From Microcaldota archaeon (GTDB lineage Archaea > Micrarchaeota > Micrarchaeia > Anstonellales > J096): DNA of 39,183 bases. The notes beneath the pieces were generated by a model that was not told where the DNA came from, made no database searches, and worked only from the letters and a program-made list of their open reading frames with translations. The stretch lies in contig JALVSQ010000021.1 in NCBI GenBank assembly GCA_027024255.1, positions 1 to 39,183 on the forward strand. Direction: 5' to 3'. Positions 8,897 through 38,779 of this stretch are shown piece after piece (positions within the stretch are counted from its first letter, which is position 1; each line of letters starts with the position of its first letter). A program made the translations under genes and the position numbers.

Positions 8897-10168
8897 CTAT
8901 TCTCTGCTGAATAATGACCACTTCCACACAGGCTTTACAGTTATTCTTTTCCCCTGCATTTCTACTTCATCTTCCTGGTCATAAGTTAAGATCAAACCTT
9001 CATCTAAGTTAAAGTAATCCATAGCCTCCAACAGACCCTTTATTTCTCTGTCCTTATTTTGCCTGCTCAACTCATAAGTCACCTGAACTGCTTTTGTAAC
9101 GCGCTGAGAGCCATGTTCCTTTACAATAAAGTCGCATTCTCTACCTGCTTTATAGAAGTTCAGGTCGTCACCATATCTCCTCAATAATTCAATTAAAACT
9201 AGATTTTCAAGTAGATGGCCTTTATTCAGTTTGTCTGGTTGTACAAAGTACTTTATGTAAGCATTATCTATTATATATATTTTCTTTGGACTCCTCAAAG
9301 ACTTCTTTGGAGAGTGTGAGAACGGTTCTAATGAGAACAATAAGAAACTCTGCTCACCGTAAAACACATACTTTTTAACAGTGTGTATATCTATTTTTTG
9401 CTGGATAGCATTCATAATGCTGTTGTATGTGTATGTTCTACCTGCATTTCTTATAAGATAAATTAACACCTCTTTCAGAAGAGGAATGTTTTTTACATGC
9501 CATCTGGCAGCAATATCTTTGTAAACTATGTCCTCAAAGTAAGTGCTTATATAAGCTGTGGTGTTTGATTTGACAAGCTCAGGAAAACCTCCATTTATCA
9601 GAAAATTGCTGAATTCTTTTTTTATTTTCCCTTTAATATCAAATCTATAAGCTTTTTTGAAGTCTATCTTTTTATAGGTAAGGTACTCTTTGAAGGAGAA
9701 AGGATATAAAGTGAAGTCAGTATGCCTTCCTGTTAAGTATGTGGTTATCTCTTTACTCAATAATGTTGAGTTTGAGCCTGTGATTATTACCTTATAACCC
9801 ATTTTTATCAATCTATTCAGGAACATATTCCAGTTGGGTTTATTCTGGACTTCATCAAATAAGATAAGCTCAAAATCAGAGCCATCCATGCTGAATACTT
9901 CAAGAATTAAGTCGTATTGGTCTGGCTTGAGATAAACCAGCCGTTCATCGCTGAAATCAAGGTACCTGAACCTGTGGTTTTGAGCAATCTGTCTGAGAAC
10001 GGTACTTTTTCCCACTCTTCTGTGACCGGTAATTACGCAGATTTTTTGCAAAGGACTTTTTAACTCATTTTCTATTTTTTTGTTTATCTCTCTTGTTACT
10101 CCATGTTCCTGTTTAATGAAAAAATCCCTTTGTTCCAGGTATATGTGCCTTAACTCATTAATCTGCAT
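8897..10168 (-). CDS. AAA ATPase 'D' with C-terminal nuclease-like domain (AAA_14/DUF4143 type)
   Basis: 423 residues from the preferred ATG at 10168. A TATA box (GTTTATAAAG, 10191-10200) lies about 27 nt upstream, so the longer frame reaching 10225 is unlikely. Walker A GHRRVGKST (about residues 49-57), Walker B LILFDEVQ, sensor VIITGSNS, then the family feature FTLYPFSFKEYL. The C-terminal domain has the PD-(D/E)XK-like pattern ENLVLIELLRRYG...ECDFIV...AVQV typical of DUF4143. The cellular role of this family is poorly defined. A threefold tandem repeat at 10206-10300 lies directly upstream, between this gene and divergent gatD. Confidence 0.85.
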   Translation of the reverse strand: MQINELRHIYLEQRDFFIKQEHGVTREINKKIENELKSPLQKICVITGHRRVGKSTVLRQIAQNHRFRYLDFSDERLVYLKPDQYDLILEVFSMDGSDFELILFDEVQNKPNWNMFLNRLIKMGYKVIITGSNSTLLSKEITTYLTGRHTDFTLYPFSFKEYLTYKKIDFKKAYRFDIKGKIKKEFSNFLINGGFPELVKSNTTAYISTYFEDIVYKDIAARWHVKNIPLLKEVLIYLIRNAGRTYTYNSIMNAIQQKIDIHTVKKYVFYGEQSFLLFSLEPFSHSPKKSLRSPKKIYIIDNAYIKYFVQPDKLNKGHLLENLVLIELLRRYGDDLNFYKAGRECDFIVKEHGSQRVTKAVQVTYELSRQNKDREIKGLLEAMDYFNLDEGLILTYDQEDEVEMQGKRITVKPVWKWSLFSRE

Positions 10169-10205
10169 AAATAATATTGTGCCTTTAATCTTTATAAACC
10201 TATTA

Positions 10206-10300
10206 CTTTTATGAAGTCCAAGCACATAAAAAATGCCTTATATTTGAAGTACATGCACATAAAAAAGAGCTTTTATATGGAATTTGCACACAAACACTTT
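10206..10300. repeat. tandem repeat upstream of ATPase D, about 31-33 nt period
   Basis: Three degenerate units begin at 10206, 10237 and 10270. Units 1 and 2 share GCACATAAAAAA (10222 and 10255, spacing 33) and TGAAGT; unit 3 has GCACACAAACAC at 10286. Each unit opens with CTT(T)TAT. The array starts about 6 nt upstream of the ATPase D TATA box. It lies within the divergent intergenic region, ending about 10 nt before the gatD TATA-like box, so it could act on both genes. Confidence 0.7.
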
Positions 10301-13192: not shown

Positions 13193-13277
13193 AATCCCTT
13201 CTTTATGCCAAGGCATTAAAATCTTTTCTTTTTAAATATTTCCAAGTGCATTTGGAAGGGTTTTTAAAGGAGCTTTT

Positions 13278-13321
13278 ATTTCCACACGGAAAAATTTTCC
13301 CAGCATTTTATTTCCACACGG
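13278..13321. repeat. 44-nt direct repeat, set 1, upstream of ATPase C
   Basis: Contains two cores ATTTCCACACGG at 13278-13289 and 13310-13321, spaced 32 nt, with CCCAGCATTTT between. Each core extended by GAAA/GAAAT is a short dyad TTTCC-ACAC-GGAAA. Identical over 44 nt to 13416-13459. The separation from set 2 is 138 nt, and no gene lies between the sets. Confidence 0.85.
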
Positions 13322-13415
13322 AAATAAAATTGCAGTCCTTTGAACTAATAAATCAGGGACATCATGATTATCTACTGAAAAAATCATGATAATATAATAA
13401 AAACATAGAAAAAAT

Positions 13416-13459
13416 ATTTCCACACGGAAAAATTTTCCCAGCATTTTATTTCCACACGG
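13416..13459. repeat. 44-nt direct repeat, set 2, at the ATPase C promoter
   Basis: Exact second copy of the 44-nt repeat, with cores at 13416-13427 and 13448-13459 (spacing 32 nt). It ends about 6 nt before the TATA-like TTTTTAAAAG at 13465-13474, the same position relative to the TATA box as the unrelated repeats of ATPases A and B. This suggests a promoter-proximal operator or loading site. Confidence 0.85.
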
Positions 13460-13492: not shown

Positions 13493-14689
13493 ATGATGGA
13501 CGAGGACATGTTTACAAATGTTGTATCCTATTCACAAAAAATGATAAACAGCAATCTTGTTTCAAAACTCAGGCCTTTATCAATGGAAATAGTAAAAATG
13601 ATTCAAAATCAAAGCATTATAACAGCCATAAAGGGGTTAAGAGGTGTGGGCAAATCCTCTCTCCTCATATACTTTCTTTATCATCAAAAAGATAGCATTT
13701 ACATAAATGCTGAATATCTTCTTAAGCAAGGGCTTTCTCTGTATGAAGTGCTTGACTATGCTTATTCTCAGGGTTACAGGGTTTTCGGTATTGATGAAAT
13801 CCATGTTTTGAAAAACTGGCCTCTTGATGTAAAGCTCTTTTATGACCAAACCAGAGCAAAGATTGTGCTGACAGGTTCTTCAGCAATCTCTTTGCATATA
13901 ACCAGCTCTGAATTATCAAGAAGGGTTGTGTCAGTGGATTTAAAGCCGTTTTCGTTCAGGGAGTTTATATACTTTAAGACAGGCGTTTTACTTGAGAAAA
14001 GAACATTGAAAGAAATTTTAGAGAATAAAAAAGAGATAGCAAGGGAAATTGCTCCATTTGTAAGTATTTACAATGAGTTTCTGGAGTATTATGCTCTCCC
14101 TGCTGCTTTTTTTGAGAGTAAGGATGTTTATCCTGGCATAATAGAGAAGATAGTATATCATGATTTGATTTCATTGAAGAGCATTGATTTCAGTTATGTG
14201 GATGCTGCTTTTAAGACATTAAGATTTCTTGTTTCTTCAAAACCAGGGGAAATAAGTTATAATTCTCTGGCAAGTTCTCTGGGCAAATCTGTAAAGTTTT
14301 CAATCAGTCTGATTAATCTTTTAGCAAATGCAGGCATTCTTAATATAATCAATGCCCATGGAAGAGGGCATAAACCAATCAGAAGCGGGGTTAAAATCTC
14401 ATTACCTTTATCGTTCAGAAGCGCACTTGCCAGATACTTTAATACCGAAGTAGAAAAAGGAGCATTGAGAGAAGATTTTTTTATTCACCATGTTGGAAAC
14501 GCTTTTTATGTAAAGGAGATGGGTAGAAGATCTCCTGATTACTGGGTTGATGGTTATGTGTTTGAAATAGGTGGTCCTTCAAAGGGCAAAAGCCAGTTGG
14601 AAAGGTCTGAGAGAGGATTCCTGGTTAAGGAATCTTTATCAACCATGTCAAACGATGTGCCTATTTATCTGTTTGGTTTACTTTATTGA
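13493..14689 (+). CDS. AAA ATPase 'C' with C-terminal DUF4143-like domain
   Basis: 398 residues. Walker A KGLRGVGKSSL (about residues 45-55), Walker B-like FGIDEIHVLKNW, sensor VLTGSSA, then LKPFSFREFI. A helical/winged-helix-like middle is followed by a C-terminal domain with SPDYWVDGYVFEIGGPSKGK, a PD...E pattern of the PD-(D/E)XK type. It is a clear paralogue of ATPase B (QPDYK...LDLEIGGPSKTK). Start ATG at 13493 or 13496; the TATA box centred at about 13470 favours either. Its private repeat is duplicated upstream, and none is found downstream of the gene. Confidence 0.85.
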   Translation: MMDEDMFTNVVSYSQKMINSNLVSKLRPLSMEIVKMIQNQSIITAIKGLRGVGKSSLLIYFLYHQKDSIYINAEYLLKQGLSLYEVLDYAYSQGYRVFGIDEIHVLKNWPLDVKLFYDQTRAKIVLTGSSAISLHITSSELSRRVVSVDLKPFSFREFIYFKTGVLLEKRTLKEILENKKEIAREIAPFVSIYNEFLEYYALPAAFFESKDVYPGIIEKIVYHDLISLKSIDFSYVDAAFKTLRFLVSSKPGEISYNSLASSLGKSVKFSISLINLLANAGILNIINAHGRGHKPIRSGVKISLPLSFRSALARYFNTEVEKGALREDFFIHHVGNAFYVKEMGRRSPDYWVDGYVFEIGGPSKGKSQLERSERGFLVKESLSTMSNDVPIYLFGLLY

Positions 14690-25647: not shown

Positions 25648-26730
25648 ATGGGCATTCTTGAGAAGATAAAAGAGATAGAGGAGGAGATAAGAAAAACGCA
25701 GTACAACAAAGCCACAGAAAAACATATAGGCATACTAAAAGCAAAGCTGGCAAAGTTGAGAAGAGCTTTGCTTTCATCGAAAAAAGGAGGAGGCCATGGC
25801 TTTAGCATTTCTAAATCAGGTGATGCCACAGTTGCCTTAATCGGCTTTCCTTCTGTTGGAAAATCAACACTATTGGCAAAGCTTACAAATGCCGAAACAA
25901 AGGCAGCAGGCTATGCTTTCACAACATTATCAGTTGTTCCGGGCATGTTGCTGTACAAGAAGGCAAGAATACAGATACTTGATTTACCAGGCATTATAGA
26001 AGGAGCAGCGTACGGTAAAGGAAGGGGTAAAGAGGTTATAAGTGTGGCAAGGAATGCGGATTTGCTTTTAATCCTGCTTGAGCCTTTTAATGCAGAGAAG
26101 CACTTTAAAGCGATAATGAAGGAATTAAAGGCAATGGCCATAAGGCACGGAAAAAGGCCTGAAATATATGTAGAAAGAAAGCATAAAGGAGGCATTGCTT
26201 TATTCTACTCAAAACATTTGAGTGTTGATGAGGAGTTGGTTAAATCGATATTGAATGAGTATGGTATTCACAATGCCAATGTTATAATAAGAGAGGAGGT
26301 AACGCCTGAAAAACTCATAGATGTCCTTGAAAATAACAGGGTTTACATTCCTTACATTGTTGCTATAAACAAAATAGATATGTGTGATGAAGAATTGCTT
26401 AACAAGCTCAGGTTAAAGTTTAAAGATGTCGTATTCATTTCAGCAGAAAAGGGCATTGGCATTGAAGAATTGAAGGAAGCAATATTCAATTCCCTGAATT
26501 TTATAAGGGTTTATACAAAGCCTCTTGGCGGAGAACCTGATCTGGATGAGCCGATGATGTTGAGGAGAGGAGCAACGATAAGAGAGGTTTGCTTAAAACT
26601 CCACAGGGATTTGCTCAAAAACTTCAAATATGCTCTCGTATGGGGGAAAAGCGCTAAATTTCCCGGGCAGAGGGTAGGGCTTGACCATAAACTTGAAGAT
26701 GAGGATATAGTTACCATTGTATCAAGATAA
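25648..26730 (+). CDS. DRG-type (OBG family) GTPase with TGS domain
   Basis: 360 residues. N-terminal helical region (1-55), then the G domain: G1 GFPSVGKS, switch AAGYAFTTLSVVPGML, G3 LDLPGIIEGAAYGKGRG, G4 NKID, G5 SAEKGIG. The C-terminal TGS domain (about 292-360) ends KLEDEDIVTIVSR. DRG GTPases associate with translating ribosomes. ATG at 25648 follows a GAGTGAG sequence. Its stop codon is immediately followed by the repeat set of locus A. Confidence 0.94.
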   Translation: MGILEKIKEIEEEIRKTQYNKATEKHIGILKAKLAKLRRALLSSKKGGGHGFSISKSGDATVALIGFPSVGKSTLLAKLTNAETKAAGYAFTTLSVVPGMLLYKKARIQILDLPGIIEGAAYGKGRGKEVISVARNADLLLILLEPFNAEKHFKAIMKELKAMAIRHGKRPEIYVERKHKGGIALFYSKHLSVDEELVKSILNEYGIHNANVIIREEVTPEKLIDVLENNRVYIPYIVAINKIDMCDEELLNKLRLKFKDVVFISAEKGIGIEELKEAIFNSLNFIRVYTKPLGGEPDLDEPMMLRRGATIREVCLKLHRDLLKNFKYALVWGKSAKFPGQRVGLDHKLEDEDIVTIVSR

Positions 26731-26784
26731 CAATTTTCACCTCTTTCACAAATTTCACCTTTGCAATTTTCACCTGTTTCACCC
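26731..26784. repeat. upstream repeat set of AAA+ gene A
   Basis: Two 18-nt cores AATTTTCACCT(C/G)TTTCAC at 26732-26749 and 26765-26782 (spacing 33 nt), with a weaker AAATTTCACCT between them at 26750-26760. The set begins right after the GTPase stop codon and ends about 7 nt before the TATA-like TTTTTAAAAT at 26790-26799. A near-identical set lies 1211 nt downstream, directly after the ATPase stop. Confidence 0.9.
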
Positions 26785-26819: not shown

Positions 26820-27941
26820 ATGAAAGAACTTAAAGAGTATGTTAAAGCCCTTGAAGATAGACCACTAACATTTGAAGATGAGGATTTATTTGTAGATAGA
26901 GAAATAGAGCTAAAAAAGATGGCAGAGCTTGATTATTACTTTGAAGGAAAGATAATAGGTGTGTGCGGCCAGAGGGGCATAGGAAAAACAACTCTCTTCA
27001 ACTTTTCAAGGTTCCCTGGAAAAAATAAACTTATAATAAAAATTATAGACAGGGAAAATAAACTCTCCATCATATCCAACATAATTGGTGAGATAATTAC
27101 ATATTCAAAAACAAAGGGCTATAATGAGATTGAAAAAATGGGTAAGAAACTCTTCACAAAAATTCATGTATCAAAAAAAGAGGCTGTGGGCATATCCTAT
27201 ATAATTGAATATAAGCAAACAAAGGAGGAAAAAATATCACTCTTTAACTTCTTGAAGTCGTTTAAGAAATTCATGGATTTGTTGAGTAAAAAGGAAAGGC
27301 TCGTGATAGTACTTGATGAAATAGATAAGCAGAAGGTGGATGAGATTCTCCTTCTTGTGGATGCTATAAAAGATGCATTTGTATCAAACTCCATCACTCT
27401 GTTTGTTGCCTTGCCTTATGAATTTTACGAAAACTTTATATCATCAAAGACGAGTTCAACAGAAACTCACAACCTTGAGAATGTATTCAGTTATATGTTC
27501 CTTCTGGAACCTTTTTCAGATGACGATGTGAAGAGAATAATCTCAAGAAGATTTCCTTTAAGTCTTATTGAGGAAGAGGCATTGAATAAGATTGTTGAGT
27601 TTGCTGATGGAAATCCAAGAAAGGCAATAACAACGCTTAAAGAGGCAGGCATAATTGCAGAGGGAAAGATAAGGCTAAGTGATGTAAAAGGAGTTATATC
27701 AAGGTACATAAGAACTTGGATAAAATCAACTAAGTTAACTCAAAATGAACTGAATGTTTTCAGATTAATTGAAGATGGTAGAGTTGCAGATATAACTCAA
27801 GGAGTATCTAAAAAACTCAGAAAATCAAGGTCTGTGGTATACAAGTACTTAAAGAAGTTTGAGGAAGCAGGGCTTTTAAATCTGGAAGGTAAAAATGCTG
27901 AGCTGAGCAGGATGGGCAGGCTTGTAAAGGAAGTGATATAA
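26820..27941 (+). CDS. AAA+ ATPase 'A', Orc1/Cdc6-like with C-terminal winged helix
   Basis: 373 residues. Walker A GQRGIGKTTL (residues 50-59), Walker B LVIVLDEIDK (about 160-170), sensor-1 region LFVALPYEF, and sensor-2-like GNPRKAITTLK (about 267-277). The C-terminus (about 305-373) is a winged-helix domain (LTQNELNVFRLIEDG, SRSVVYKYLKKFEEAGLLNLEG). The layout resembles Orc1/Cdc6 and the archaeal ATPase family; the sequence is too divergent to call an initiator. Leaderless start: TATA centred 25 nt upstream. The gene sits exactly between two copies of a private repeat. Confidence 0.8.
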   Translation: MKELKEYVKALEDRPLTFEDEDLFVDREIELKKMAELDYYFEGKIIGVCGQRGIGKTTLFNFSRFPGKNKLIIKIIDRENKLSIISNIIGEIITYSKTKGYNEIEKMGKKLFTKIHVSKKEAVGISYIIEYKQTKEEKISLFNFLKSFKKFMDLLSKKERLVIVLDEIDKQKVDEILLLVDAIKDAFVSNSITLFVALPYEFYENFISSKTSSTETHNLENVFSYMFLLEPFSDDDVKRIISRRFPLSLIEEEALNKIVEFADGNPRKAITTLKEAGIIAEGKIRLSDVKGVISRYIRTWIKSTKLTQNELNVFRLIEDGRVADITQGVSKKLRKSRSVVYKYLKKFEEAGLLNLEGKNAELSRMGRLVKEVI

Positions 27942-27995
27942 CAGTTTTCACCTCTTTCACAAATTTCACCTTTACAATTTTCACCTCTTTCACTT
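27942..27995. repeat. downstream repeat set of AAA+ gene A
   Basis: Cores at 27943-27960 and 27976-27993, spaced 33 nt, the same order and orientation as upstream, offset by exactly 1211 nt, with only a few mismatches over about 54 nt. It starts 1 nt after the ATPase stop and runs into the last codons of the convergent DUF134 gene. Confidence 0.9.
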
Positions 27996-31551: not shown

Positions 31552-32979
31552 TTATTCTTTCTCTAACTTCAGGGTTTTTTCTGCTAATTGTTCAAGTGCT
31601 GTTTCAGATGCTTCTTTAACATCATAATCCTCGTATTTATCCTTTAACCTTTCCATAAGAGCATTAATGATCTTCCTATTTGCTACCCCTAATTTTCCTA
31701 AAGCCTTAGCAGCTGTTTCTTTAACATACCATTCTTCATTTTTGTCTTTTAACCTCTCTACAAGAGCATTAACAACTTCTTTATTTGCTACTCCTAATTT
31801 TCCTAAAGCCTTAGCAGCTGCTTTTCTAACACTTGGGTGTTCACTTTCATCATTCAACCTTTCTACAAGAGCATCAATAACCTTTTCACTCGCACCACCT
31901 AATTCTCCTAAAGCCAAACATACTCCAGCTCTTTCTTTCCAATCTGTGCTGTTAATATCAGGTAAAATTCTCTCAACAATTTCTTCCTCCATTTTGTTCT
32001 TTTTAGCTATTTTACCAAGGGCTTCAGCAGCTGCTTTTCTAACACTTGGGTGTTCACTTTCATCATTCAACCTTTCTACAAGAGCATTAATAACTTCCTC
32101 ACTTGGAACTCCTAATTCTCCTAAAGCCAGACATACTCCATGTCTTTCTTTCCACTCTGTGCTGTTAATACCGGGTAAAATTCTTTCAACAATTTCGTTT
32201 TCAATGTTATTCTTCTTAGCTGTTTTACCAAGAGCTTCGACAACTGCTTCTCTAACATCTTCATCCTCATCTTTCAGCCTCCCTACAAGAGCATTAATAA
32301 CCTTTTTATTTGCAACCTCCAGTTTACCTAAAGCCTCAGCAACTGCTTTTTTAACATCCCATTTTTCGTTCTCATCCTTCAACCTCTTTACAAGTACTTT
32401 AATGAGCTTCTCGTTTTCTTCCACTGACTTAACCAATGCTTTAATAACTGTTTTTATAACCTTTCGGAATTTACCTTCCTTTTTAAGTTTATCTGTCGTA
32501 GATTTGGTTTCTTTTCTTGCAGCCCCTAATTTGCCAAGGGCTTCAGCAGCTTCTTTTCTAACCCTTGTGTATTCCCTTTTATCATTCAACCTCTCTACAA
32601 GAGCATTAATAACCTTCTTACTTTTTACTCCCAGATCACCCAGGGCAGCACAGGCTTCCATCCTTTCCTCCCAATCCTCACTATTAATCTTAACCAAAAG
32701 AGTTTCTATTACTTTATTGACCAGTTCCTTGGTTACTTCCTCTCCGAACCTTTCCTTTATCTCTTCAATAGTCTTTTTATCAGGGATTCCTTCCTTAAAC
32801 TCTTCAAGCAATCTTTTAACCACCTCTTCTTTGTATTTATGGACCTGAGAAGGAGCTATAAGTCTTACTAACTTTTCATCAGGAATTCCTTTTCCTTCCA
32901 TTAACTTATTAAGTAAATTGGCCTCTCTTCTTTTAGCTTCTTCTATATTCTCCTTCACCCTTTCCTTGAATTTTCTCAT
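31552..32979 (-). CDS. HEAT-repeat family protein 2
   Basis: 475 residues. N-terminal domain (about 1-110) with GIPDEKLVRLIAPSQVHKY shared with the paralogues, then about eight to nine HEAT/PBS-lyase-type repeats with the consensus ALGKLGVANKKVINALVERL. Two neighbouring blocks are nearly identical in DNA, showing recent internal duplication. It ends AEKTLKLEKE just past an A6 run; in another frame the DNA encodes NPEVRERIRKLIAG before a TAA, which looks like the ancestral end. Probably a scaffold or binding protein; partner unknown. ATG start at 32979. Confidence 0.85.
   Translation of the reverse strand: MRKFKERVKENIEEAKRREANLLNKLMEGKGIPDEKLVRLIAPSQVHKYKEEVVKRLLEEFKEGIPDKKTIEEIKERFGEEVTKELVNKVIETLLVKINSEDWEERMEACAALGDLGVKSKKVINALVERLNDKREYTRVRKEAAEALGKLGAARKETKSTTDKLKKEGKFRKVIKTVIKALVKSVEENEKLIKVLVKRLKDENEKWDVKKAVAEALGKLEVANKKVINALVGRLKDEDEDVREAVVEALGKTAKKNNIENEIVERILPGINSTEWKERHGVCLALGELGVPSEEVINALVERLNDESEHPSVRKAAAEALGKIAKKNKMEEEIVERILPDINSTDWKERAGVCLALGELGGASEKVIDALVERLNDESEHPSVRKAAAKALGKLGVANKEVVNALVERLKDKNEEWYVKETAAKALGKLGVANRKIINALMERLKDKYEDYDVKEASETALEQLAEKTLKLEKE
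31813..32087. repeat. internal duplication in HEAT gene 2
   Basis: The 62 nt at 31813-31874 recur exactly at 32026-32087, an offset of 213 nt (71 codons). Exact identity over this length inside a coding repeat points to a recent unequal exchange or duplication adding one block. Confidence 0.8.
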
Positions 32980-35537: not shown

Positions 35538-36352
35538 TTATTCTTTCTCTAACTTCAGGGTTTTTTCTGCTAATTGTTCAAGTGCTGTTTCAGATGCTTC
35601 TTTAACATCATAATCCTCGTATTTGTCCTTTAACCTTTCCATAAGAGCATTAATGACTTCTTCATTTGCTACTCCCAATTCTCCCTGCGTATTTTAACTA
35701 AAGCCTCAGCAACTGCTTTTTTAACATCCCATTTTTCGTTCTCATCTTTTAACCTCCCTATAAGAGCATCCATTACTTCTTTACTTGCAATTCCTAATTC
35801 TCCTAAAGCCAGACATACTTCATATCTTTCTTCCGGGTTTCTGCTGTTAATACCGGGTAAAATTCTTTCAACAATTTCTTCCTCCATTTTGTTCTTTTTA
35901 GCTATTTTACCCAGGGCTTCAGCAACTGCTTTTTTAACATACGGCAATTCGCTCCCATCTTTCAACCTTTCTAAAAGAGCATTAATAACCTTCTTACTTT
36001 TTACTCCCAGATCACCCAGGGCAGCACAGGCTTCCATCCTTTCCTCCCAGTCCTCACTATTAATCTTAACCAAAAGAGTTTCTATTACTTTATTGACCAG
36101 TTCCTTGGTTACTTCCTCTCCGAACCTTTCCTTTATCTCTTCAATAGTCTTTTTATCAGGGATTCCTTCCTTAAACTCTTCAAGCAATCTTTTAACCACC
36201 TCTTCTTTGTATTTATGGACCTGAGAAGGAGCTATAAGTCTTACCAACTTTTCATCAGGAATTCCATCTTCCATTAACTTCTTAAATAAATTAGCCTCTC
36301 TTCTTTTGGCTTCTTCTATATTCTCCTTCACTATTTTCATCAATTTTCTCAT
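35538..36352 (-). pseudogene. HEAT-repeat family protein 3, frameshifted copy of protein 2
   Basis: The intact N-terminal frame (35669-36352) codes for 227 residues, nearly identical to HEAT protein 2 over its N-terminal domain and first repeats. Relative to the paralogue, about 14 extra nt near 35682-35695 shift the frame, so translation stops at 35669. Past that point the other frame still encodes the C-terminal repeat through AEKTLKLEKE, ending at 35538. The 139 nt at 35518-35656 match 31532-31670 with one mismatch, so the damage is recent. The copy also lacks most middle repeats. It may be a pseudogene or a functional shortened protein. Confidence 0.75.
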
Positions 36353-36464: not shown

Positions 36465-37409
36465 ATGAATGTTATGCTTATTGCTGAGGGCAACGGTTAT
36501 GGTCATGCTTCCAGGCTTTCTTTATTGGCTACTTACTTCAAGGAGCCTATAATTACATTCTACAAAGGCGTTGAGTTTTGTAAAAAAGAGGGCATTCCAT
36601 ACATTGATATTGGCACGCCTTACTACATTGATGATGAAAATGTTGCCTTAAAGTTAAACATAAATGGTATGAAAAGATGGTTCAAGCCCCTTTTGCTCAA
36701 AAATCTTGTGGATATGGCTAAGGAAAAGGATGTAATTATAGGGGATACATCTCTTTTAGCATTGGTAATCGGCAAGATAGCAAAGAAGCCAGTCATAGGT
36801 ATTTTCAGCGATGTTTACAGCAATACATTTATCCCTTCATTTATAAATCCAATAAGCAAGAAGACTATTGCAGCAGTCCTGAATATGTTTGATTCTCTCC
36901 TCATTCCTGATTTTCCACCACCTTATTCAATTTCCTCCTTAAACCTTCAATTAAAAAAAGCAAGGTTCATAGGACCTATGGTTAAGCCCATCAGGCAGGT
37001 AAAGCATAACATTCCATTAGTTGTTTCAGCAGGGGGCAACGGCATTGAGGTTAAGAGGATTAAAGACCTTGGTTTAAGGTTTATTTCTCAATACGATGTT
37101 AAAAACATAAGGCAGTATTACAAGCATGCAAAGGGTATTTTGACCCATGGTGGCCACACAACAATAATGGAAGGCATTTACTATGCTAAACCACTTTTGT
37201 TTTTTGTTAATAAAAAGTACAAAGAAAGGCTCAACAACTCTGTGAAGGCAGAATCCTTAGGCATTGGAAGGATTGTTTCCTTAGAGAGTTTACCCATGGC
37301 CATTGATGAGATTGATTTTATGAAAAAGAGGGTTTTGTGGTTTTCCAAATGGGCAAGAAGGTTTAATCCTGTAAAAGATGTTGAAGATGAAATAAGTAAA
37401 TTTGTTTAA
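36465..37409 (+). CDS. GT-B glycosyltransferase (MurG/UDP-GT-like)
   Basis: 314 residues. The N-terminus MNVMLIAEGNGYGHASRL has the Gly-rich acceptor loop of MurG-like enzymes; the C-terminal motif GILTHGGHTTIMEGIYYAKP is the nucleotide-sugar site of this group. LVVSAGGNGIE marks the start of the second Rossmann domain. Likely transfers a sugar from a UDP/NDP donor. TTTTAAATA at 36431-36439 lies about 30 nt before ATG. The locus B repeat begins right after its stop. Confidence 0.83.
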   Translation: MNVMLIAEGNGYGHASRLSLLATYFKEPIITFYKGVEFCKKEGIPYIDIGTPYYIDDENVALKLNINGMKRWFKPLLLKNLVDMAKEKDVIIGDTSLLALVIGKIAKKPVIGIFSDVYSNTFIPSFINPISKKTIAAVLNMFDSLLIPDFPPPYSISSLNLQLKKARFIGPMVKPIRQVKHNIPLVVSAGGNGIEVKRIKDLGLRFISQYDVKNIRQYYKHAKGILTHGGHTTIMEGIYYAKPLLFFVNKKYKERLNNSVKAESLGIGRIVSLESLPMAIDEIDFMKKRVLWFSKWARRFNPVKDVEDEISKFV

Positions 37410-37413
37410 TTGT

Positions 37414-37461
37414 CCATTTTTCTGGACAAAAATTTCAATTTTTGTAAATTTTTCTGGACAA
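37414..37461. repeat. 48-nt direct repeat downstream of ATPase B
   Basis: Two cores ATTTTTCTGGACAA at 37416-37429 and 37448-37461, spaced 32 nt. The 48 nt are identical to 38732-38779, offset 1318 nt, same orientation. At this copy TGTCC at 37411-37415 also makes a dyad with GGACA at 37423-37427. It ends 2 nt before the ATPase stop codon. Confidence 0.92.
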
Positions 37462-37462
37462 G

Positions 37463-38695
37463 CTATACAAGGCAGGCAAGGTATAAGGGTAAGGTGACCA
37501 CATTACCTTCTATACTTATCTCTTCTCCTTCTTTTAAAAGAAAGCCCTTTCTTATCTGGCTTTTTGTTTTTGACGGGCCTCCTATTTCAAGGTCAAGGAA
37601 CGCATTGCCTGCCCTTATCTTATAATCAGGCTGTTTTTTTCCATGATTGTAGAAAAGAGGTATTTTTTTGTAATAAAAAGAGGAGACAACTGCATCTTCT
37701 CTGAGGCCACCTATGTTTTCTCTGAGATAAAGGTTAAGTGTTAAGCTGTGCCTTAATAAAGGAGATGAAAACAAAAACTTTCTTTCTTTCCTTAACGAAG
37801 CAGATGAAGGGGGATATGGCAACACAGATATAAGAAAGGAGGATGTTTCAAGAGCATTTAAGATGTTCAACACAGTCGTTCTTGATGTTCCTGCTATTTC
37901 TGCAAACCTCTGGAGCGATATCTTTTCAGGTGGGGAAAGGGCTATTGTTTCAACTATCTTTCTTGCTTTTTCACCTGCATCTATGTTGAAGCCTCCTATG
38001 TAGGGGAAATCAAATGTTACTATCTGGGAGAGGAGGCTGTAAGCAACATCCCTGACATTCATCCCGAATGCAAGGGGAAATCCATGGGTGAGGTATTCCC
38101 TGAATTCGTAGCTTAAACTCCTTAACCTTAATAAATAATCTTTTGCCTTTGTGTATGCATCCTTTGGCATAGATGAAAATATGTCAATTGCAGATTCATT
38201 TACATGTATGCCTTTCTTTATTCTCAGATATTCCCTGAAGGTAAGAGGAGGCAGTTCATAGAATACGGCCCTTCTTGCCATTGCAGAACCTTTGAGCCTT
38301 ATCTTTATGGCTGAGGATCCCGTTGCTATTATTTTAAGCTTGAAGTTATCATATATTATTTTAAGCTTTTTATCCCATTCGCTAATGTCTGTTAGCTCAT
38401 CTATGTAAAGTGTTCGGAGGTTGGTGTGCTTTATGTAGTCTTTAACAACCTTCACAATGTCCAGTTTGTAATAAGATAGACTCGACCCGTCTATGAACAT
38501 GCCGTCTCTTTCAGCCATTGCCTGATTCAATGAAACAGATTTTCCTATACCTCTTAATCCGTAATATATGAAAGCAAGTTCTCCTTTTTCATTTTTGAGC
38601 CTTTCAACAATATCTCTTTGTTTGTACTTTTTAGCATCTTCTTTTCTTTCCTCTTTCTTTTCTTCCATGAACCTTATGAATTCAAAAACGTCCAT
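37463..38695 (-). CDS. AAA ATPase 'B' with C-terminal DUF4143-like domain
   Basis: 410 residues. Walker A YYGLRGIGKS (about 44-53), Walker B TLYIDELTD, sensor IIATGSSA, then LPPLTFREYL, a winged-helix-like segment (LQRFAEIAGTSRTTVLNIL, about 265-290) and a C-terminal PD-(D/E)XK-like domain (QPDYKIRAG, LDLEIGGPSKTK). Closest relative in the window is ATPase C. ATG at 38695; ATATTTTTAAAGT on the minus strand (about 38717-38729) is at TATA distance. The gene is enclosed by two perfect 48-nt direct repeats and sits between a glycosyltransferase and an S-layer gene. Confidence 0.87.
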   Translation of the reverse strand: MDVFEFIRFMEEKKEERKEDAKKYKQRDIVERLKNEKGELAFIYYGLRGIGKSVSLNQAMAERDGMFIDGSSLSYYKLDIVKVVKDYIKHTNLRTLYIDELTDISEWDKKLKIIYDNFKLKIIATGSSAIKIRLKGSAMARRAVFYELPPLTFREYLRIKKGIHVNESAIDIFSSMPKDAYTKAKDYLLRLRSLSYEFREYLTHGFPLAFGMNVRDVAYSLLSQIVTFDFPYIGGFNIDAGEKARKIVETIALSPPEKISLQRFAEIAGTSRTTVLNILNALETSSFLISVLPYPPSSASLRKERKFLFSSPLLRHSLTLNLYLRENIGGLREDAVVSSFYYKKIPLFYNHGKKQPDYKIRAGNAFLDLEIGGPSKTKSQIRKGFLLKEGEEISIEGNVVTLPLYLACLV

Positions 38696-38731
38696 TGTAA
38701 GTCTTTTTAATAAAATACTTTAAAAATATTG

Positions 38732-38779
38732 CCATTTTTCTGGACAAAAATTTCAATTTTTGTAAATTTTTCTGGACAA
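38732..38779. repeat. 48-nt direct repeat at the ATPase B promoter
   Basis: Cores ATTTTTCTGGACAA at 38734-38747 and 38766-38779 (spacing 32 nt). The near core lies about 7 nt upstream of the ATPase B TATA box, matching loci A and C. Its other side is 36 nt from the stop codon of the S-layer gene. Confidence 0.92.

Follow-up and report, generated by a model that had tools for sequence, protein, structure and literature searches.

Private direct repeats with paired sites 32 bp apart bracket ATPase genes of the PDC-S01 family in Micrarchaeota

The repeat pair and the genes at the locus

The stretch of DNA analysed here (the window) is an entire 39,183-bp contig (JALVSQ010000021.1) of a Microcaldota archaeon, the source assembly (GCA_027024255.1) comprising 875 kb in 52 contigs. 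Near its right end lies an ATPase gene, hereafter ATPase B, enclosed by two identical copies of a 48-nt unit, CCATTTTTCTGGACAAAAATTTCAATTTTTGTAAATTTTTCTGGACAA, at 37414-37461 and 38732-38779, which stand in direct orientation at an offset of 1318 nt; the chance expectation for such exact pairs in the window is about 3e-19. Both copies are intergenic. A glycosyltransferase gene (36465-37409, +) stops 4 nt short of the first, while the second sits between the start of ATPase B and the stop (38816, −) of an S-layer-like gene, which runs off the contig end and matches Pfam S_layer_C slightly under the cut-off (E = 8e-5). A first-pass annotation of this DNA had described two identical non-coding copies framing one gene, and coordinates, offset and gene map all agree with that description, the framed gene being an accessory one. 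In the whole genome of 875 kb, TTTTTCTGGACAA is found at exactly four places, all of them at the ATPase B locus. An RNA reading of the repeats was set aside, as no Rfam family matched there.

Apart from those of two HEAT-repeat paralogues, every one of the longest exact direct repeats of the window lies around or ahead of an ATPase gene, with exact lengths of 48 nt (ATPase B), 45 nt (ATPase A, 13493-14689) and 29 nt inside a 56-nt repeat (ATPase C, 26820-27941). The first-pass annotation had overlooked that a bracket-type layout is common to the three ATPase genes with repeats in the window (Table 1) and to many of their relatives within the Micrarchaeota, which are DPANN archaea.

Table 1. 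Repeat-bearing ATPase genes of the window and their associated sites
Feature	Position	Strand	Remarks
ATPase B, 410 amino acids	37463..38695	−	AAA_14 ATPase, helical part, winged helix (about 244-293), PD-(D/E)XK-like C-terminal domain; PADLOC PDC-S01 family
ATPase B upstream repeat copy	38732..38779	−	−84 to −37 from start codon, beside TATA-like box
ATPase B downstream repeat copy	37414..37461	−	begins 2 nt after stop codon (1 nt between)
Perfect 20-bp dyad	37410..37429		TTGTCCA-N6-TGGACAA; identical 20-mer also in genomes G012 and G014
Second dyad, imperfect	37442..37461		TTGTAAATTTTTCTGGACAA; 32 bp from first dyad
Imperfect dyad of upstream copy	38760..38779		partner at 38729-38747, TTGCCATTTTTCTGGACAA, 1 bp short
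TATA-like box	38720..38729	−	ATATTTTTAA; −34 to −25, between repeat and start codon; read from sequence
ATPase A	13493..14689	+	same family as ATPase B; two repeat copies upstream, none downstream
ATPase A repeat copy 1	13277..13321	+	TATTTCCACACGG motif twice, 32 bp apart
ATPase A repeat copy 2	13415..13459	+	
ATPase C, 373 amino acids	26820..27941	+	ATPase_2/Cdc6-like AAA+, C-terminal winged helix; family differs from A and B; same bracket layout
ATPase C upstream repeat	26727..26782	+	56 nt, 53/56 identical to downstream copy; TTTTCACCT motif, 32-bp spacing
ATPase C downstream repeat	27938..27993	+	starts in last codons

PDC-S01 proteins are fusions of an ATPase with a PD-(D/E)XK domain, described as the fourth commonest prokaryotic defence candidate, enriched in archaea, untested and of unknown mode of action (PMC12988326). 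ATPase B matches Pfam AAA_14 at 7e-18 (65.3 bits, cut-off 27), with the Walker A/B residues G46, R48, G51, K52, D99 and E100 invariant across 44 sequences, and the PADLOC PDC-S01 model, for which no curated cut-off is shown, at E 3.9e-20 over residues 18-358 of 410. DUF4143 stays below the Pfam cut-off (19.3 bits vs 28.1), HTH_11 is likewise sub-threshold, and a paralogue in the same genome reaches a DUF4143 score of 69. Judged by these profiles, ATPase B is a divergent family member, for which the name DUF4143 is not claimed. An AlphaFold2 model built from 44 window and locus sequences reached a predicted local distance difference test (pLDDT) score of 94.7, and the full-length fold matches AAA+ proteins (RuvB, clamp loaders, STAND). 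The last 174 residues, modelled separately (pLDDT 92.9), resemble winged helices of the MarR/IclR type, among them operator-bound TtgV and SlyA; matches to FokI and HindIII are weak (E about 0.01-0.03). Furthermore, the E, PD and ExGGxxK residues are conserved in the C-terminal domain, with the lysine displaced, in accordance with the published description of the family (PMC12988326). Among named genomes one close relative was found, in Micrarchaeota isolate AUK049, and none among the viral contigs searched.

The family is also represented elsewhere in the window and its genome (G000), where 34 AAA_14 profile matches were counted. No repeats were detectable at one other AAA_14 ATPase gene of the window (8897-10225, −), and at another locus (L075, G000:C26) at least four such genes lie in tandem without bracket repeats. 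On a Treponema saccharophilum plasmid (L159), a PDC-S01-type ATPase gene has hsdR on one side and a type I methyltransferase gene on the other, surroundings that resemble those of defence genes. The HEAT-repeat genes of the window (31552-32979 and 35669-36352, −) have exact stretches of 194, 111 and 75 nt in common, which suggests a recent duplication or gene conversion.

Bracket layout and paired sites among relatives

Homologues were taken with their flanks from 50 of 99 related genomes, giving 85 ATPase genes and 227 other open reading frames (ORFs) at the same loci, and each was scored by the strongest direct repeat linking the DNA before its start with the DNA around its stop. A score of at least 20, the threshold, was reached by 39/85 ATPase genes, a few of which (e.g., L075) have tandem-gene or coding repeats rather than clean brackets, vs 2/227 other ORFs. 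One of these two is ATPase C, an ATPase of a different family. The bracketing repeats are gene-specific, often 40-73 nt long and up to 100% identical, with perfect matches over 73/73, 70/70, 58/58 and 54/54 nt; this specificity suggests recognition of each bracket pair by its own ATPase. Most upstream copies end 20-40 nt before the start codon, at or across a TATA-like box, and downstream copies start anywhere from 41 nt inside the gene to 28 nt beyond the stop; in two units (L090, L089) the upstream copy even includes 19 or 41 nt from the 3' end of the gene itself. A variant arrangement, with two copies upstream and none downstream, is found at ATPase A and at a homologue in G012, the pairs often lying 82-84 nt apart. 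The layout was also seen in other families of the phylum. At locus L063, a palindromic ATAAAGGGGGCCC...CCCCCTTTAT repeat occurs in 39-nt copies on either side of a non-ATPase ORF (668-1525), which may be another small element.

A copy usually contains a pair of short, often dyad-symmetric motifs at a spacing of exactly 32 bp. Motif recurrence at this lag was detected by a tolerant test at 29/85 ATPase genes, far above every other lag, and lag 32 was not among the leading lags at 132 control genes non-adjacent to an ATPase. Dyad scores of at least 7 were obtained for 42% of the lag-32 units vs 4% of shuffles. Separately, a tRNA-Val(CAC) gene (L190, G014:C39, 608-806) has an 88-nt intron in which GTTC-N12-GAAC dyads recur at a distance of 32 nt, as in a repeat array that lacks its ATPase.

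ATPase C shows that the layout extends beyond the PDC-S01 family. Its winged helix is Csa3-like, and no nuclease domain was detected in it; in G025, a relative of 42% identity shows the TTTCACC motif again, in paired repeats lying at −84 and at the stop codon, and the repeat pair of another relative contains a TTCCC motif. Private repeats accompany the genes of Orc1/Cdc6 and plasmid Rep proteins, and ATPase C is distantly Cdc6-like, so that replicator-like sites of iteron or ORB type, on which an AAA+/winged-helix initiator would act, deserve consideration. However, a single genome of 875 kb has such sites next to about nine different genes. ATPase C also stays far below the Orc1/Cdc6 family model (29.8 bits vs a cut-off of 181.3), which ATPase B does not match, and the relatives' real Orc1/Cdc6-like genes lack the layout (30 ORFs at such loci, also AAA+/winged-helix, scored at most 12 against the threshold of 20). 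We consider a replicator role highly improbable.

Conservation with the gene and variable contexts

Among the repeat-bearing ATPases compared, the repeat regions were similar in 25/43 pairs at 45% protein identity or more (permutation p = 0.0005). Below 40% identity this was so for about 1% of pairs, and the DNA 230-420 bp upstream was never similar in the compared pairs. Over all pairs, the Mantel rank correlation between repeat and protein similarity was weak (p = 0.11), because most pairs are too diverged and the effect takes the form of a threshold above about 45% identity. On these comparisons, repeat similarity follows general protein relatedness, and the winged helix is not singled out by the data. 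The G012 homologue, with 52% amino acid identity to ATPase B, has the ATPase B dyad four times, with one occurrence matching exactly over 20 bp, and in a further unit comparison the repeats were 82-85% identical vs 67% for the unit. Of the causes first offered for the identity of the two copies (recent duplication, conversion or selection), selection is thus backed by the conservation of the repeat with its gene between genera.

The same evidence bears on whether the copies could be a long target-site duplication left when an unrelated transposase inserted the gene. Perfect direct repeats around one gene would fit; however, the repeat is common to related ATPases at unrelated sites and often includes the last codons of the gene. 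For units with relatives this origin was rejected, since the repeat sequence follows the gene and not the site, and overall it is scarcely credible.

One unit can also occur in different contexts. Units of G003 and G007 are 78.5% identical in the gene and 97-100% in the repeat core, and have no flanks in common. In G012 and G014, which belong to different families, the repeats and gene start are about 98% identical at the DNA level, with an abrupt edge about 25 nt outside the first dyad. Within the window's genome, the upstream end of a unit on contig C40 is found again where contig C30 ends, there joined to another flank, 115 bp beside the ATPase start being 98% identical between the two contigs (L192, L096) up to an edge about 33 nt outside the repeat; this unit is probably present at two sites in the sampled population. 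These cases come from draft, probably metagenome-derived assemblies, in which misbinning or strain mixture could explain single ones. Nearly all units are unique among 301 genomes of the phylum, and near-identical copies at more than one site were seen as the C40/C30 pair and the G012/G014 pair. Equivalent units adjoin genes for tRNA synthetase, Alba, Drg GTPase and other proteins. The suggestion that ATPase B occupies a variable surface locus therefore holds as regards the variable contexts but not the link to the S-layer gene, whose proximity is probably incidental. No closed empty site could be read, since gene order differs in the family-level relatives even though they have the flanking genes (Drg GTPase, TyrRS, ProRS, Alba) in common. 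Elsewhere in the window's genome, an archaeal 16S rRNA gene (L099, G000:C4, 3399-5022) measures 1624 nt vs a 1478-nt model, and comparison with G007 points to an insertion of about 128 nt.

Identical direct repeats of 48-73 nt placed 1.3 kb apart are a permissive substrate for RecA-type recombination, and the ATPase B gene is patchy among relatives. The first-pass annotation had accordingly expected that recombination would remove the ATPase and leave one copy, a cassette with on/off variation. This expectation found no support in the assemblies: for nine units in the window's genome no solo repeat was found, save the contig-end copy (C30) beside an unassembled second unit, and no lone scar of the nine units tested was found in the 301 genomes. 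Recombination alone would, in addition, leave the 32-bp spacing and the motif conservation unexplained. Such a cassette is very unlikely.

A role for the ATPase in its own movement is a stronger competitor, although we regard it as unlikely. Here the repeats would be the ends of a self-mobile single-gene element, which the ATPase-nuclease would cut or join to move, copy or home its gene, the terminal redundancy arising from the insertion reaction. The recurrence of one unit in different contexts, the loss of similarity at the repeat edges, the stretch of the gene's 3' end held in some upstream copies and the PD-(D/E)XK-like domain of the family (PMC12988326) all speak for it. However, the ends are direct, in place of the terminal inverted repeats of DNA transposons, no target-site duplication was recognised, no closed empty site was found, and a multicopy family within one genome is absent. 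Defence genes, moreover, often move by other means, and the presence of the layout at ATPase C, where no nuclease domain is detectable, favours binding or regulation over nuclease-driven mobility. The bolder form of this idea, a new class of self-mobile single-gene units ending in direct repeats, whose proteins would each recognise only their own 32-bp-paired sites, copy or home their gene there by AAA+ and nuclease activity and double as defence against incoming DNA, is doubtful to the same degree.

Candidate function and comparison with known systems

The reading that we favour, with somewhat better than even confidence and from sequence comparison, is that the repeats are private cognate binding sites of the ATPase they bracket, probably autoregulatory in role and carried in a horizontally spread unit of about 1.4 kb. 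Each copy would offer two short, mostly dyad-symmetric sites separated by 32 bp, that is, three helical turns, which are probably bound by the winged helix of the ATPase; its AAA+ part may assemble over each pair of sites and may link the upstream array with the downstream one. The gene would thereby control its own promoter in a self-contained manner, a proposal that draws on the excess of flanking repeats, lag-32 motifs and dyads at the ATPase genes, on the similarity of repeats between related ATPases, on the winged helix in the model and on the position of the upstream copy at the TATA box. Bracket arrangement, specificity, spacing, co-conservation, changing contexts and domains are observed, whereas binding, autoregulation and bridging are inferred from them. 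Sites and gene together would spread as an accessory, probably defence-related unit, and the perfect identity of the copies may stem from recent duplication or gene conversion.

Several observations weigh against binding and autoregulation. Neither feature was detected at 29/85 ATPase genes, some of them missed through wrong start calls (e.g., L006), and none of 10 bacterial plasmid PDC-S01 members examined has the layout. Binding sites need not match over 48-73 nt including their spacers, so duplication or conversion must be added to the explanation. Automatically defined dyad arms were no better conserved between copies than spacers (7.0 vs 7.5% mismatch, p = 0.89). A TATA-like box inside some downstream copies would also be superfluous for a plain operator. 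On a Sulfurimonas aquatica plasmid (L160), an ATPase gene adjoins a tyrosine recombinase and is flanked, in a different layout, by an imperfect repeat of 47 nt at −147 and +128.

The protein family is already known; no description of private flanking repeats or of paired sites at 32 bp turned up in the literature searched (subscription papers and preprints lay outside the search), and within that scope the private flanking arrays are the new part. Under the binding-site reading, each Micrarchaeal PDC-S01 member gains a defined candidate DNA partner, so that specificity, stoichiometry and function become testable in vitro without culturing, and the occurrence of the same bracket layout and spacing in an unrelated family (ATPase C and its relatives) suggests a general principle.

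Compared with known systems, ATPase B resembles PDC-S01 (AAA_14/DUF4143) proteins in its AAA_14 domain, C-terminal winged helix, E...PD...ExGGxxK motif and PADLOC match, while the ten bacterial plasmid members examined lack the layout. MarR/IclR-type autoregulators such as TtgV and SlyA likewise combine a winged helix, with matching fold, and dyad operators at their own promoter, but the ATPase adds fused AAA+ and nuclease-like domains, and a second full array stands at its stop codon. Orc1/Cdc6-ORB and Rep-iteron systems share the private repeats beside the gene and the pairing of AAA+ with a winged helix, whereas ATPase units are many per genome, have repeats on both gene sides and come with no evidence of an origin. 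Tn7-type elements (TnsA nuclease, TnsC AAA+, TnsB end sites) unite AAA+ and PD-(D/E)XK functions with multiple sites of about 20 bp per end; the ATPase unit, in contrast, is a single gene with direct ends and no transposase found, and its repeats differ between units. Finally, integron cassettes (gene plus attC) are similar in coupling a compact gene to a structured site that is specific to the gene and begins at its stop codon, and differ in that the ATPase units, with no adjacent integrase or cassette array seen, carry sites at both ends of a gene from a single family.
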